From an uncultured Cryomorphaceae bacterium (GTDB lineage Bacteria > Bacteroidota > Bacteroidia > Flavobacteriales > Schleiferiaceae), in NCBI GenBank assembly GCA_913049845.1, contig CAJWZE010000014.1, forward strand, positions 1 through 33,001: DNA of 33,001 nucleotides, in the 5' to 3' direction. Below, one piece after another: positions 6,554 through 12,288 of this stretch. Positions within the stretch are counted from its first letter, which is position 1; every line of letters starts with the position of its first letter. The notes beneath the pieces are model-generated. The model had not been told where the DNA came from. It worked only from the letters and a program-made list of their open reading frames with translations, and ran no database searches. The position numbers and the translations under genes were made by a program.

Positions 6554-7675
6554 TTAGTGATTGAGCATCACTGGCATAACCAACATCAATAAGTCTTCAC
6601 CTTCGTCAACGCCATCCGCCGGGATAAGAATTCCTGCCCGATTCGGTGCGCTCATTTCCAAACGCACGTTATCCGAACCAAGATTGCCGAGCATTTCCAA
6701 CAAGAAACGGCTGTTAAATCCAATCTCTATGTCTTCGCCTTGGTAATCACAAGCCAAGCGCTCGTTCGCTTTGTTACTGAAATCTAGATCTTCAGCGCTG
6801 ATGCCCATTTCCGCTCCTGCAATACGCAAACGAATCTGGTGGGTCGTTTTATTTGAGAAGATAGCCACACGCTTCACCGATGAAGAGAATGCGCTGCGAT
6901 CTACCAACATAACATTCGGGTTGGACTGCGGGATTACTGCCTCGTAGTTCGGATATTTTCCGTCAATCAAGCGACACACCATAACCACGTTATCAAAAGA
7001 GAACTGTGCATTGGTATTGTTGTATACCACCTTCACCTCTGAGGAGTCATAACTTAAAGAACCGCGTAGCATGTTCAGTGGCTTCTTCGGCATGATGAAC
7101 TCAGCCGTGCTTTCCGTACCTAGATTCGTTCTTCTATAACGCACTAACTTGTGTGCGTCTGTGGCTACAAAGGTTAATCCGTTAGTATCGAACTGGAAGA
7201 AAACACCACTCATCACTGGACGAAGCTCGTCGTTACCCGTAGCAAACAAAGTTTTACCAATGGCTGTAACTAGTACTTCAGCAGGAAGTGTTGTAGAGGT
7301 AGCATCCTCTAACTCTGGGAATTTCGGGAACTCGTTACCATCAATAAAGGCTAACGAGTACTTCCCATAATCTGAAGACAGTTCTATCGTATGCGACCCT
7401 TCATCGAAAGTAAAAGTCAACGGCTGCTCCGGGAAGGTCTTCAAAGTGTCCATTAACACTTTCCCAGGTACTGCTGCAGAACCTACATCTTCTGTTTCAA
7501 CTTCAAGGTTGACGCTCATAGTCGTTTCTAAATCGGAAGCGCTTACCACCAACTCGCCTTGCTTCAACTCAAAAAGGAAGTTGTCTAAAATAGGCAAGGT
7601 ATTGTTGCTTTGAATAATTCCTCCAATTAGTTGGAGTTGTTTCAACAGCTTAGAACTAGATACGATGAATTTCAT
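6554..7675 (-). CDS. dnaN: DNA polymerase III beta subunit (sliding clamp)
   Basis: The 373-residue ring-forming processivity factor that tethers DNA polymerase III and other clamp-binding proteins to DNA. Typical features are the N-terminal MKFIVSSSKLLKQLQLIGG, NTLPILDNFLF, DLETTMSV, FVATDAHKLVRYRR, the LIDGKYPNYEAVIP loop and the C-terminal VMPVML hydrophobic patch. The frame extends to 7693, but the conserved Met at 7675 is the start. dnaN is not beside dnaA here; it follows the Gld-type ABC genes, a context I recall from other Flavobacteriia. A perfect -7 element 30 bases upstream suggests its own promoter. Confidence 0.98.
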   Translation of the reverse strand: MKFIVSSSKLLKQLQLIGGIIQSNNTLPILDNFLFELKQGELVVSASDLETTMSVNLEVETEDVGSAAVPGKVLMDTLKTFPEQPLTFTFDEGSHTIELSSDYGKYSLAFIDGNEFPKFPELEDATSTTLPAEVLVTAIGKTLFATGNDELRPVMSGVFFQFDTNGLTFVATDAHKLVRYRRTNLGTESTAEFIMPKKPLNMLRGSLSYDSSEVKVVYNNTNAQFSFDNVVMVCRLIDGKYPNYEAVIPQSNPNVMLVDRSAFSSSVKRVAIFSNKTTHQIRLRIAGAEMGISAEDLDFSNKANERLACDYQGEDIEIGFNSRFLLEMLGNLGSDNVRLEMSAPNRAGILIPADGVDEGEDLLMLVMPVMLNH

Positions 7676-7704
7676 AATAGGTCGTCTTATCAAGAGATGA
7701 TGAA

Positions 7705-7777: not shown

Positions 7778-8806
7778 CTAGTTGAATTCCCAGGGAGTCA
7801 ACATGAGGTTACGCCAGCCGTAGCGCTGTATAATTGCCATTCTACCATCCGGCAGCTTCGTGTAGAATCTGTCGGGATCCCACTCGTGTGGTGTACCGTC
7901 CTCCCCTATTAAAATACCTTCGGTTTTCTTGTAGAAAGCACGCGTCTCCAATATTTCTCCTTCGGTAGTATGTACATAGAATGAAAATGCCGGCGTCGAA
8001 TTAAAAATACTATCTTTCTTTTCCCATATATTATCCGTAGCAACCACTGCGCCCTCGTACTTTAAAGTACGGACTGCAGCAACTGCCGACATCAATAGTT
8101 GTGGATTACTATATGGCAATGGCTCGAACTCGCCACCCACCAAGATCCAACTAGCAGCATCGCTAGCAGTAAGGTTAAAACCCTCATCAGATTTACGGGT
8201 AATCATCCAAAAGAAGCCCTCTACACCGTTGACTTTCATCTCAATGCTTTCAATCTGCTCCGGAGCAAAACCGTAAATGGTTCGGTCGCGCCACATAGAA
8301 GGCTCGGTAAAGAATCGGGTGGTCAAATACCCGTTAAAACCTTGGATGTAAACTGAAAAGGGTAATTCTGAATCGACCATTCGGTAATAGGTTCCCAGCA
8401 TATCCGGTGTCTCTGTGCCGACGATGTAGCTTTTCACTAATTCGTCTCCGCTATATACCTCTACCCATTTACCGTATACCTCCATACGCTTATTCACTGC
8501 AGGAACGGCACTCTTGGAAACAAAATTCTTCAGCGTTACACTACCCAAGGTTTCTAGCAATACTTCAATAGCGTCCTTGCGTACAGCGTGTTCTCCGTCT
8601 ACTAACCAACCGTGTTCCGTACGCTCTAAAGTCACTTGGGAAGGTTTCTTGTCGCTTATGATCACCTTGGTAATCCTTGATGTATCTGCAAAGGCGAAAT
8701 CGTACTGTACCTTGAGTTCTTCCATACCGTCGCTCTGCGCTGGAGAGCCACAGCCAATGGCAATTGCTGCAAACAGTAAGCTATAAATACTATTCTTAAC
8801 GGGCAT
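7778..8806 (-). CDS. DUF4340-type lipoprotein of the Gld-like ABC operon
   Basis: 342 residues with a lipoprotein-like signal ending AAIAIGC (Cys19), followed by a beta-rich region typical of DUF4340: DTSRITKVIISDKKPSQVTLER and LVDGEHAVRKDAIEVLLETLGS (about 40-95), then GTYYRMVDSELPFSVYIQGF and TEPSMWRDRTIYGFAPEQIE. DUF4340 proteins commonly follow GldG-family ABC components, and here the start overlaps the end of the GldF-GldG gene by 11 bases, so co-translation is likely. The predicted site is the periplasmic face of a membrane, possibly as an accessory of the transporter. The lipobox (AIGC) is weak at -3. Function is not established. Confidence 0.78.
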   Translation of the reverse strand: MPVKNSIYSLLFAAIAIGCGSPAQSDGMEELKVQYDFAFADTSRITKVIISDKKPSQVTLERTEHGWLVDGEHAVRKDAIEVLLETLGSVTLKNFVSKSAVPAVNKRMEVYGKWVEVYSGDELVKSYIVGTETPDMLGTYYRMVDSELPFSVYIQGFNGYLTTRFFTEPSMWRDRTIYGFAPEQIESIEMKVNGVEGFFWMITRKSDEGFNLTASDAASWILVGGEFEPLPYSNPQLLMSAVAAVRTLKYEGAVVATDNIWEKKDSIFNSTPAFSFYVHTTEGEILETRAFYKKTEGILIGEDGTPHEWDPDRFYTKLPDGRMAIIQRYGWRNLMLTPWEFN

Positions 8807-11210
8807 ATTTTCTTCTTCTGTATAGGGTTAACAAGCTTGCAACAAGTAATAATAATACCTCTGGTAATGCTACATTAATAGCTTTCCATTTGGCTGCCTC
8901 ATTGCTCAACTTATCCTCATTGAGTAATCTCAATTTAATATCGCGCGTACGCGTTTCCATTAGTCCACGGTCGTCCAGCATGTAGTCGGTTAGATTCATT
9001 AGCAAATCGTCATTGCCGTATTGAATGTTAGTGTATTGATCAAATCCTAGCGGCAGAGGTTGACCACGAGGAAGTTCAGGGTTAATCAAATTCACTTGGT
9101 TGCGAATGATATCACCATCACTGAAAACAGCTATGCTGGTAGGTGCACTTTCCTTGATTTGAGGCAATGCATTTCCTGCCTTACGGGGAGCTATCCTATT
9201 GGCATAAGTACTTTCGAAGATTCCTTCCAGGAGGACACCTGCGAGCAAATCTTTGATGCGGAAGGTGCGTGGATCTGGACGGTTGTACAAGCTTCCTAAA
9301 CTCACTGTATGCGGTGCAGGTGTGCTCTTGGCATTGGTTGAGCTTAACAATAGTGGTGTTTTTAGAATTCCTGGTGCCTCTAAAGTATCAAGGGTGCTTA
9401 CGAATTCACCTTTTACCGCATTAAGGTTAGCTACCGCTGGATGCGTTGTTGGCCCCAATAGTGGGAAGTATACCCAAGGGCTAATGCTGCGTCTGTCATT
9501 AATACCAGCACAACGTATGTCTTGGATGAGGTTCGTGTTAACGCGAACGCCGTATTTAAATAACAGGTCGGTAAGATTTAAATCGAAATACGTTGGGTAG
9601 GCTAAGAATTCTGGTCCAAAGCTTAAGCTGTCCATTTCAGCGTGAACTCCATCTACAAACCACATAAGGTGTCCCCCACCCATGAGGAATTGGTCCAGCA
9701 GGTATTTATCCAATTCAGAGAAGGCCTTTGTTGGTTTTGCTACTACTGCAAGATCAAAACTGTTCAAGCGGCGCACCATGTCTTGTATGTCCGGTGAACC
9801 GTCGGCCTTTGCCTTGTAGGTCTCCATGGAAAAGCGCTCGACCGCGTAATGCTCACTTAAGGCCAAGCCGATACCGGCGGTCTGTGAAGCCGTGAGCTCT
9901 CCGTGCCCAGTAATCATGGCTATTTTTTGTCGTTCGGTTTGCAATAATGCAGAAAGTGAACGCGCCAAGTTGAACTCAAGTTGTTGTATGCTAATGTTTA
10001 CTTGCTCTGCTGGATCGAATACCATCACATCTTCTAACAGAATAACGGTTTCTTCTTTCTCTTGGTAACTCATCACTGCCGCCGGAAAGACATTTAGCAC
10101 GCTACCACCGTCCTTGGTTTTCACCTGAAGCTGGACTGCATTGATTCCTTTGGTGGCCAATTGGTTTTTGAAATCTGCTTGCTTTTCAGCTTCGTTCGGA
10201 TTGATGAACTCAAAGAATATATTGCCGTTGCGTGCACTCAACTCTTCGAGCATGAATTGCGTTTCTAGCTTTAGACGCTCAAAACCTGCTGGGAATTGGC
10301 CCTCGAGGTAGACCTTGATAAGCATGGGCTCTTTGACTTGGTCCAATAAGGATTCCGTGCCTTCGCTCAGCGAATACCTTCCCTCTTCGGTTATATCTAG
10401 TCTAAATCGTACGCTTTGGCTGATAAATATAACCATTGCTGCACCTACAAAGTATGCTATTATAGTACGTCCCGTCGAATGCAGATGACGCCTGCTCAGT
10501 ACGATGAACGTTCCAGATAGGAACAGTAATACCACTCCAATAAAGTACCCTAAATCGCGGCCGTCGAGTACGCCACGAGAAACAGACGTGTAATGTTCGT
10601 TAAAGCCAAACTGGCGCATAGTAAGTTCCCAGCCGCTGAATTTATAGATATCTGCCAATGCGTCGAAGCCAAGGTACATTCCCATATTTAGCGCTACCCC
10701 TAGAATGAAGGCTACCACATTGTTTGAAGTAAGCGCGCTCGCGAAAAGTGCTACCGCAGTGTAAGCCGCACCCAATGCTAAAAGACCAATAAATGACCCA
10801 CTGGCTGAACCCCAATCAATATTTCCCACAGGCGAGCCCAGGGCACTTATGCTCCAGAGATAGATCAGTGTAGGGGCAATACTCAATACCACTACGGAAA
10901 GTGTACCCAAGTATTTAGCGACAACAAGCTGTGTGGTCGAAATTGGTCGAACGGCCAAAAGCTCCATCATTCCCGAACGAATCTCATCGCTGAAAACGCG
11001 CATGCTTACTGCTGGAATAAGGAACAAGAACACCCACGGCGCCAAACCGAAATAGTTTGTCAACGAAGCATAGCCGGCCTCGAGCAGGTTGAATGGACCG
11101 TTAAATATCCAGAGCATCAAACCGTTGATCAGTAAGTAAATGCCTATTATCAAATAGCCTAATATACCCGAAAAGTAGAGCTGTAATTCTTTCTTTAGTT
11201 GTGCAATCAT
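8796..11210 (-). CDS. Fused GldF-GldG: ABC permease joined to auxiliary/substrate-binding component
   Basis: One 804-residue reading frame. Residues 1 to about 242 match GldF: six hydrophobic helices, SMRVFSDEIRSGMMELLAVRPIS (the ABC-2 permease element before helix 3) and a final helix ending VLSRRHLHS. Residues about 249 to 804 match GldG: an N-terminal helix (about 250-266), LDITEEGRYSLSEGTESLL, TGHGELTASQTAGIGLAL, FVDGVHAEMDSLSFGPEFLA, and a C-terminal anchor helix followed by RRRKYAR. In Flavobacterium johnsoniae gldF and gldG are separate adjacent genes encoding about 240 and 560 residues, which add up to this product. The GldA ATPase is not in the window. The gene overlaps its upstream neighbour by 4 bases and DUF4340 by 11. 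An export or gliding/secretion role is inferred from the family. Confidence 0.88.
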   Translation of the reverse strand: MIAQLKKELQLYFSGILGYLIIGIYLLINGLMLWIFNGPFNLLEAGYASLTNYFGLAPWVFLFLIPAVSMRVFSDEIRSGMMELLAVRPISTTQLVVAKYLGTLSVVVLSIAPTLIYLWSISALGSPVGNIDWGSASGSFIGLLALGAAYTAVALFASALTSNNVVAFILGVALNMGMYLGFDALADIYKFSGWELTMRQFGFNEHYTSVSRGVLDGRDLGYFIGVVLLFLSGTFIVLSRRHLHSTGRTIIAYFVGAAMVIFISQSVRFRLDITEEGRYSLSEGTESLLDQVKEPMLIKVYLEGQFPAGFERLKLETQFMLEELSARNGNIFFEFINPNEAEKQADFKNQLATKGINAVQLQVKTKDGGSVLNVFPAAVMSYQEKEETVILLEDVMVFDPAEQVNISIQQLEFNLARSLSALLQTERQKIAMITGHGELTASQTAGIGLALSEHYAVERFSMETYKAKADGSPDIQDMVRRLNSFDLAVVAKPTKAFSELDKYLLDQFLMGGGHLMWFVDGVHAEMDSLSFGPEFLAYPTYFDLNLTDLLFKYGVRVNTNLIQDIRCAGINDRRSISPWVYFPLLGPTTHPAVANLNAVKGEFVSTLDTLEAPGILKTPLLLSSTNAKSTPAPHTVSLGSLYNRPDPRTFRIKDLLAGVLLEGIFESTYANRIAPRKAGNALPQIKESAPTSIAVFSDGDIIRNQVNLINPELPRGQPLPLGFDQYTNIQYGNDDLLMNLTDYMLDDRGLMETRTRDIKLRLLNEDKLSNEAAKWKAINVALPEVLLLLVASLLTLYRRRKYAR

Positions 11211-11503
11211 ACTTTACTGCTATCGGTCTTTAGGCACGTCCATGTCTGGGGTTTATCGTAAAATAACGCTTTGGTCTTTGGCCATACCTCTCCAAATAAC
11301 GTGCTTTGGCGGTAAGCGTTTAAATCGGCTTCACTATCCCACATACTGTATGTAAAAAAATGTCCTTCACTCTCGAGCAAGTGCACGCCGTGGCAACCGG
11401 GCTGACTAGCTATGCGATTTCTGCTTTGTGCAAAAATGTCGCGAAACGCAGCACCCTCCTCCGAGCTAGGGTCAATGGCTAATTTAACAATGCGTTCTAT
11501 CAT
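11207..11503 (-). CDS. ABM-domain protein (putative quinol monooxygenase-like)
   Basis: 98 residues, the size of a single antibiotic-biosynthesis-monooxygenase (ABM, dimeric alpha-beta barrel) domain. It begins MIERIVKLAIDP, has FRDIFAQSRNRIASQPGCHGVHLLES and the typical FFTYSMWDSEADLNAYRQST strand-helix block, then LFGEVWPKTKALF. Proteins of this fold act on quinones, haem or small aldehydes without a bound cofactor; nothing here tells the substrate. It overlaps the DUF62 gene by 4 bases upstream and gldFG by 4 bases downstream, so it is expressed with the operon, though its link to the transporter is unclear. Confidence 0.8.
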   Translation of the reverse strand: MIERIVKLAIDPSSEEGAAFRDIFAQSRNRIASQPGCHGVHLLESEGHFFTYSMWDSEADLNAYRQSTLFGEVWPKTKALFYDKPQTWTCLKTDSSKV

Positions 11504-12288
11504 AAGAAATCAATACGTACCCAATCGTGAATCTTCATTCCGATTAATTCATTACTACCTCGGATATGTTCTCCACCGCTCTTACCCACTGCTACGGAAA
11601 GCATGCCTTCCTCGTTCCATAAGGCCGCTAATTTTCCTTGCGGAACGTCAGCGATGCGGTCGTAAATCTTCTTCATACTTCTATTCCGGGCCAATTCCAC
11701 CGAGAAGGTCCTACCCTTCAATTGGTTTTGAAAACTTTCGCGAGAAATGTTTGTCACACACGTTCCCATGCGGTCGATATAAACGACATTTCCACTAATA
11801 GCAAAATCGCCAATCCCAGCCGCGGGCTCTTTGACCTTTTTTACCGAATTGATGGAAGGACCGAGCATTTCTAATTTTCCTCCACTAAATAAGTGGGCTG
11901 CGGCGGCGGCAAACAACTCTTTTTCGTCGTTGAGGTCAATCCCACGAATGTCTAGAATTCGAGCACCGGTTATTTTCTCGTTTTTCAGGACACTGGTAAG
12001 CAAACCGTTGTTGGTACCCAAAAAGAATTGGCCACAAGCTTTTAAACAGATGTATTCGCCACCTTCCATAGGAGAGGTTCCAATCATAACACAATGTATG
12101 GTGCCTTTGGGGAAGTCGCGGTACACACCTCTGAGCATATGAGCAGCTTCTAGAATGTTGTGCGGCTCCACCAAATGACTGATATCCAATAATCTAGCTT
12201 CTTCTATACGGCGTATTAAACGAATCTTCAGCCTAGCGACAGTATTGTCGCGAAGTCCGTAATCCGATATTAATGTGATTATTCCCAT
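11500..12288 (-). CDS. DUF62 / SAM hydroxide adenosyltransferase-family protein, catalytic triad degenerate
   Basis: 262 residues matching the DUF62 family (SAM hydrolase, chlorinase, fluorinase): N-terminal ITLISDYGLRDNTVARLK, LLDISHLVEPHNILEAAHML, NNGLLTSVL, then KELFAAAAAHLFSGGKLEMLG and a C-terminal beta-barrel domain with YIDRMGTCVTNIS. Characterised members use an Asp-Arg-His triad; the Asp and Arg lie in VDPGVGxxR. Here that segment reads IGTSPMEGGEY (about 69-79), so both are missing, while the His (His132 in AAAAH) remains. Either the Bacteroidota branch uses other residues or it has another function. First gene of a four-gene overlapping run (DUF62, ABM, GldF-GldG, DUF4340), divergent from phoH. 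Confidence 0.85.
   Translation of the reverse strand: MGIITLISDYGLRDNTVARLKIRLIRRIEEARLLDISHLVEPHNILEAAHMLRGVYRDFPKGTIHCVMIGTSPMEGGEYICLKACGQFFLGTNNGLLTSVLKNEKITGARILDIRGIDLNDEKELFAAAAAHLFSGGKLEMLGPSINSVKKVKEPAAGIGDFAISGNVVYIDRMGTCVTNISRESFQNQLKGRTFSVELARNRSMKKIYDRIADVPQGKLAALWNEEGMLSVAVGKSGGEHIRGSNELIGMKIHDWVRIDFL

Follow-up and report, generated by a model that had tools for sequence, protein, structure and literature searches.

The window analysed here, a stretch of 33,001 nucleotides, is one entire contig of a 1.79-Mb, 106-contig, 85%-complete bin. It contains a tight cluster of genes on one strand, in which genes for a SAM hydrolase, an ABM-domain protein, a GldF-GldG fusion and a DUF4340 protein overlap by 4, 4 and 11 bases, and a putative dnaN gene comes next. 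The genes, and the parts of the fusion, are listed in the order in which they are read.

11500..12288, minus strand: SAM hydrolase / hydroxide adenosyltransferase, 262 aa, with which the overlapping cluster opens (Pfam)
11207..11503, minus strand: ABM-domain protein, 98 aa; its stop overlaps the gldFG start by 4 bases (Pfam)
8796..11210, minus strand: gldFG fusion gene, 804 aa (single ORF, profile matches, genus conservation, predicted model)
10494..11210, minus strand: GldF half, residues 1-239, a six-helix NosY-like ABC-2 permease (TIGR03518, 285 bits; NosY chains, Z 19.9-21.9 over residues 1-242)
10473..10490, minus strand: linker, residues 241-246, from the last GldF helix to the first GldG helix (helix boundaries of the model; every genus locus read has the same junction length)
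10419..10472, minus strand: first GldG transmembrane helix, residues 247-264 (predicted model)
10071..10388, minus strand: DUF7088 domain of GldG, residues 275-380 (Pfam)
8955..9932, minus strand: predicted GIFT-fold domain of GldG in the periplasm, residues 427-752 (matches the IFT52 N-terminal domain at Z 21.1 and 20.6 and oligosaccharyltransferase chains at Z 16.7-18.8; ABC_transp_aux at 427-739)
8802..8918, minus strand: C-terminal helix of GldG, residues 765-803 (predicted model)
7778..8806, minus strand: DUF4340 protein, 342 aa; its start overlaps the gldFG end by 11 bases (Pfam)
6554..7693, minus strand: downstream gene, taken for dnaN (ORF; served as a query in the reading of loci)

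The original prediction described one 804-residue frame in which GldF and GldG are joined with no internal stop, and gave no strand. The frame is indeed present, on the minus strand, with its ATG at 11210, a stop ending at 8796 and zero internal stops. Both halves were found as described, each matching its own profile nearly end to end, and the junction sequence reads RRHLHSTGRT as quoted. The GldG half scored 527.4 bits against the equivalog TIGR03521 (cut-off 389.85), with residues 253-803 covering profile positions 7-552 of 552. The GldF half scored 285.1 bits against the equivalog TIGR03518, 3.4 bits below the curated cut-off of 288.5, which is an NCBI naming rule and not a biological trait; residues 1-239, directly before GldG, cover profile positions 1-238 of 240. 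We call the N-terminal half GldF on the strength of this near-full-length match and its position in the gene, with its score under the cut-off. Pfam places ABC_transp_aux at residues 427-739 and DUF7088 at 275-380; four ABC2_membrane families match the N-terminal part, just one of them over its cut-off.

The neighbourhood is largely conserved. Loci were read in a sample of 88 genomes from the window's family, of which 85 had a GldG match and 81 gave readable loci; the other four (G020, G046, G067 and G083) had only fragments. All four neighbours (SAM hydrolase, ABM, DUF4340 and the 6554..7693 product, which we take to be DnaN) were matched in 60 of the 81 loci and none in three, counts that score the presence of matches and not gene order, at loci some of which are cut by contig ends. 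DUF4340 was matched in 75/81 family loci and near 56 of the 68 named loci outside Flavobacteriaceae; it had no match at 12 named Flavobacteriaceae loci or at 6 loci of family f3. In Flavobacterium psychrophilum, dnaN is placed downstream of gldG in an excerpt of PMC5682007. The SAM hydrolase gene scores well under the cut-offs of the NCBIfam equivalogs; it and the ABM-domain gene (11207-12288) are co-oriented and overlapping with gldFG, and their link to gliding is unexplained. A scan for promoter-like sites (7, against 10.3 in shuffled sequence) and terminator-like sites (8, against 5.1) in the window was not used further.

A structure of the monomer was predicted from 46 sequences (mean pLDDT 81.5, pTM 0.68). 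In the model, the permease has six helices (approximately 16-35, 51-79, 92-124, 133-160, 164-188 and 217-240), and a linker of about 6 residues leads to a GldG helix at 247-264, with a last helix at 765-803. The model thus retains GldF's final helix and GldG's initial one in a compatible topology, as had been proposed. If the permease is N-in, the large GldG part between the two helices must be periplasmic in this model. The predicted permease fold (residues 1-242) is NosY-like, with Z scores of 19.9-21.9 and a best rmsd of 2.6 over 231 aligned residues, and residues 427-752 matched IFT52 and oligosaccharyltransferase chains at Z 16.5-21.1, the IFT52 N-terminal domain being the best (Z 21.1, rmsd 2.5, 216 aligned).

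No solved structural relative was found by sequence at E values up to 1. NosY of NosDFY has the fold of the GldF half at about 15% identity, and NosDFY, like GldAFG, combines an ATPase, a permease and a periplasmic partner in one complex; in NosDFY this partner, NosD, has a different fold and is a distinct protein. A literature search for NosDFY with mechanotransmission found nothing, and the comparison draws on the fold match. The GIFT domains of IFT52 and of OST48/Wbp1, which we presume to be the matched chains of the oligosaccharyltransferase complexes, share the fold of residues 427-752. IFT52 and OST48/Wbp1 are eukaryotic proteins that are not known to carry an attached permease. The name GIFT itself includes GldG, as explained in an excerpt of PMC7226087. 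Another close counterpart is the F. johnsoniae system of GldF, GldG and GldA; the two halves match the GldF and GldG profiles nearly in full and in the same order. In F. johnsoniae, according to part of PMC9127263, GldF (Fjoh_2722) and GldG (Fjoh_2721) are encoded by separate genes, whereas here they form one chain, and sister species of the window have a GldA some 70 residues short of the profile length.

A metagenome consensus can erase a stop or a frameshift, and the window is a single contig of a fragmented, incomplete bin (106 contigs, 85% complete); the chance that the fusion arose in this way is nevertheless very small. In the window's genus (g1), with 25 genomes, two had no match and two had unread fragments, and the gene was fused in all 21 loci read, one of which breaks off within GldG at a contig end. 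Besides the window's own locus, which is among the 21, the remaining 20 come from separate genomes. No stop or frameshift near codon 245 was found in the assemblies of related species, and neither half failed to match its profile. The nearest named locus, L085 (Bacteroidetes bacterium isolate IN_BCD_1), is 95% identical across all 804 residues, and other near named loci carry the titles Cryomorphaceae, Schleiferiaceae or Flavobacteriales bacteria. In 20 complete g1 genes, the junction was free of gaps and stops at a pS of 0.74-0.81, where silent sites are near saturation, and pN/pS was 0.52 in the linker, 0.62 across the junction as a whole and 0.16-0.18 in the halves. The intact junction at such divergence, together with these ratios, indicates that gldFG is translated as one continuous frame, with a linker that appears constrained yet looser than the halves. 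With 46 of 80 named loci also fused, these sequence comparisons confirm the fusion as real and exclude an assembly artefact in practice.

The occurrence of the fusion was mapped across related genomes, as the original prediction had suggested, and proved widespread in Bacteroidota. Its interpretation of the gene as a true fusion stands; the rarity it implied does not (46/80 named loci, 15/113 order genomes and 7/56 phylum genomes). Within the family, 36 of the 81 loci were fused and 45 split, with fusions in genera g1 (21/21), g5 (3/3), g14 (3/3) and g17 (9/21, the other 12 split), and the loci of 15 other genera were all split. The order sample comprised 158 genomes, 113 of them over the GldG cut-off; fifteen of these carried frames of at least 785 codons, seven in the window's family. 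The phylum sample, which overlaps the order sample in genomes, comprised 247 genomes, 56 over the cut-off, and seven had fused-length frames; one over-cut-off frame of 687 codons (G288) was left unread and not scored as fused. All 11 fused-length frames outside the family were true fusions when read, and nine short-frame comparison loci were split. The 80 best loci in named genomes divided into 46 fused and 34 split, which gives no estimate of frequency because the scan ranks by one continuous match and is biased towards in-frame pairs; 10 of the 46 come from genomes that the family sample already contains. The fused named loci include Bizionia, Algibacter, Aquimarina, Dokdonia, Wocania, Flaviramulus, Mucilaginibacter and rumen Bacteroidales, and Dokdonia has both a fused (L138) and a split (L133) locus. 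Bizionia algoritergicola (L101) and Algibacter lectus (L132) are cultured species with the fused form. Verified fusions occur in four genera of the window's family and eight other genera, with more among named Flavobacteriaceae, and on these comparisons gldFG is a recurring variant of a known machine, not a new one. A tie between fusion and small genomes was considered and is unsupported, as the fusion is found in genomes of 1.3 Mb (an incomplete bin) up to more than 5 Mb. No statement of a GldF-GldG fusion was found in the open-licence literature searched, which does not establish its absence in print.

Two trees of fused and split loci were built, both quickly, without a mixture model and with long-branch warnings, and the placement of L211, L212 and L224 is unsure. 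The wider tree held 163 GldF+GldG rows, after identical rows were removed (175 to 163) and six overly partial loci were left out of the trees; it requires at least 14 state changes, 12 of them forced by starred branches, a number that carries no direction for each change. In the family tree, g14, g1, g5 and g17 are grouped (support 85) with the 12 split g17 rows nested within, so a single fusion with one split after it would fit the tree, and so would as many as four fusions. The junctions are not equally long (g1 33, g5 34, g14 38 and g17 31 residues), and on that ground we lean towards several fusions within the family.

The split loci show how little would be needed to fuse the genes. A GldF match lies directly upstream of gldG in the 45 split family loci; stop and start overlap in 32 of these, by one base in 18 and four bases in 14, and in a further 7 gldG is in frame behind the stop, so that a single point change or small indel could fuse the pair. 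The split GldF ends in a tryptophan in 35 of the 45, often as QSRKW, and QSRKW persists inside the chain of the fused g14 and many Bacteroidales proteins. The fusion might accordingly be a neutral by-product of stop loss between overlapping genes that leaves the machine unchanged, since coupled split genes already give a 1:1 ratio. We rate this at even odds. The 32/45 overlapping and 7/45 in-frame loci speak for it, as do the mixing of both states within genera (Dokdonia L138 and L133; g17, 9 fused and 12 split) and the span of fused genomes from 1.3 Mb (incomplete bin) to over 5 Mb. The presence of the fusion in 21/21 genus loci and its retention over long branches argue only against harm, and this neutral reading competes seriously with any functional account. 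Another reading is that the gene yields two proteins, either because translation can also begin internally to give GldG or because GldG is released from GldF by cleavage after synthesis; we judge this quite improbable. Across 82 scored fused loci (ten named loci were dropped as duplicate genomes, and L211 was unscored for want of an RxDxT motif), 59 had some ATG, GTG or TTG before the GldG helix and 23 an ATG; in the g1 loci, one of the three codons was present in 11/21, and 2/21 had an ATG 18 or more residues ahead of the RxDxT motif, and a cut after synthesis is compatible with the sequence. However, the window has none of the three codons in the internal-start region before the GldG helix, no position is common across the genus, and the linker is only about 6 residues long in the model.

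The part played by GldA, GldF and GldG in gliding and type 9 secretion is poorly understood. The three proteins are described, in the partial sources consulted, as forming an ABC transporter needed for gliding. The window's genome has GldM (390 bits) and GldJ (471 bits) matches over cut-off, as do 84/88 and 78/88 family genomes, respectively, which is only consistent with a GldFG role in gliding or type 9 secretion. Such a role may be dispensable, because gliding without GldF and GldG is reported, in an excerpt of PMC7440613, for two Cellulophaga species and for Maribacter sp. HTCC2170. We consider it probable that this real GldF-GldG fusion replaces two proteins and, most likely as A2(FG)2, moves periplasmic GIFT domains for gliding and type 9 secretion. 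This account builds on the single frame, its conservation and recurrence and the predicted architecture, and presumes expression as one chain. Two fusions and two GldA ATPases would most likely form one A2(FG)2 complex. ATP binding and splitting by GldA would move the GldF permease; the short cytoplasmic link and the transmembrane helices of GldG would carry this movement across to the GIFT domains in the periplasm, and these would act on a putative partner needed for gliding and type 9 secretion. GldG would then be a permanent 1:1 partner that relays GldA/GldF movement to the periplasm.

A role outside the gliding machine, in which GldFG exports or handles a glycan or lipid and the GIFT domain is the ligand-binding part, seems unlikely, at roughly one chance in a few. 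GIFT domains are proposed to bind sugar in an excerpt of PMC7226087 that cites Beatson and Ponting 2004, which would favour ligand handling by GldG. The same role would suit the absence of both proteins from Cellulophaga tyrosinoxydans and the gliding without this transporter for which C. algicola and Maribacter sp. HTCC2170 are cited (PMC7440613, in part). Against it, PMC8444969 lists F. johnsoniae strains null for gldA, gldF or gldG as non-motile, and they formed no biofilm; GldM and GldJ are over cut-off in most of the family (84/88 and 78/88).

Returning to the gliding machine, the 1:1 ratio of GldF to GldG that had been predicted is forced within the chain, and a natural single-chain form fixes both this ratio and the membrane side on which the two are joined. 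Repeated fusion, together with the overlapping start and stop codons of split forms, suggests that GldG might be tied to GldF as an obligate 1:1 membrane partner, rather than being the exchangeable substrate-binding protein that its database name implies. GldAFG would then be an A2(FG)2 mechanical transmitter, with lineages that combine fusion and short GldA as its minimal form; we hold this tentatively, at slightly less than an even chance. Single-chain GldFG is a simpler structural target and a natural test of how GldAFG works, and the distribution map names species that carry it.

No GldA ortholog was found in the window's 85%-complete bin, where the best profile match scored 160 bits and was 37% identical to the GldA of a sister species. 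A GldA match above 300 bits was present in 17 of the 25 genus genomes and missing from eight, three of which are listed as 91-93% complete. In several g1 assemblies (G064, G068, G072, G075 and G079) gldA lies less than 2 kb from a contig end, perhaps from repeated DNA beside it. This position in sister genomes makes an assembly gap the likely cause of the missing GldA in the window's bin.

Among 40 family loci read for GldA (L165-L204), the protein was 227-233 residues long in 34 and 299-305 in six. In the short form the missing stretch, of about 70 residues, lies close to the C terminus, and the terminal LE..F motif is mostly retained. This form occurs in g1, g5, g15, g17 and g19, and full-length GldA was read in g6, g14, g16 and g18. 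A link between fusion and GldA shortening was rejected as a rule, since fusion goes with full-length GldA in g14, and split genes go with short GldA in g15 and g19. Outside the family, GldA was compared in 20 genomes. With a fused gene, the GldA match ran to the profile end in G172, G208, G158, G252, G103 and G088, reached position 293 in G114, where the contig ends, and stopped by position 247 in G413, G312, G090 and G096; with split genes it was short in G346 and G092 and full in the other seven. Fusions of GldA itself are not claimed: in the loci read, the extra codons of the 262- to 422-codon frames around short GldA precede the start of the match. In G346, G413, G312 (family f17) and G268 (f22), gldF(G) is preceded on its own contig and strand, within about 1.5 kb, by the best GldA match.
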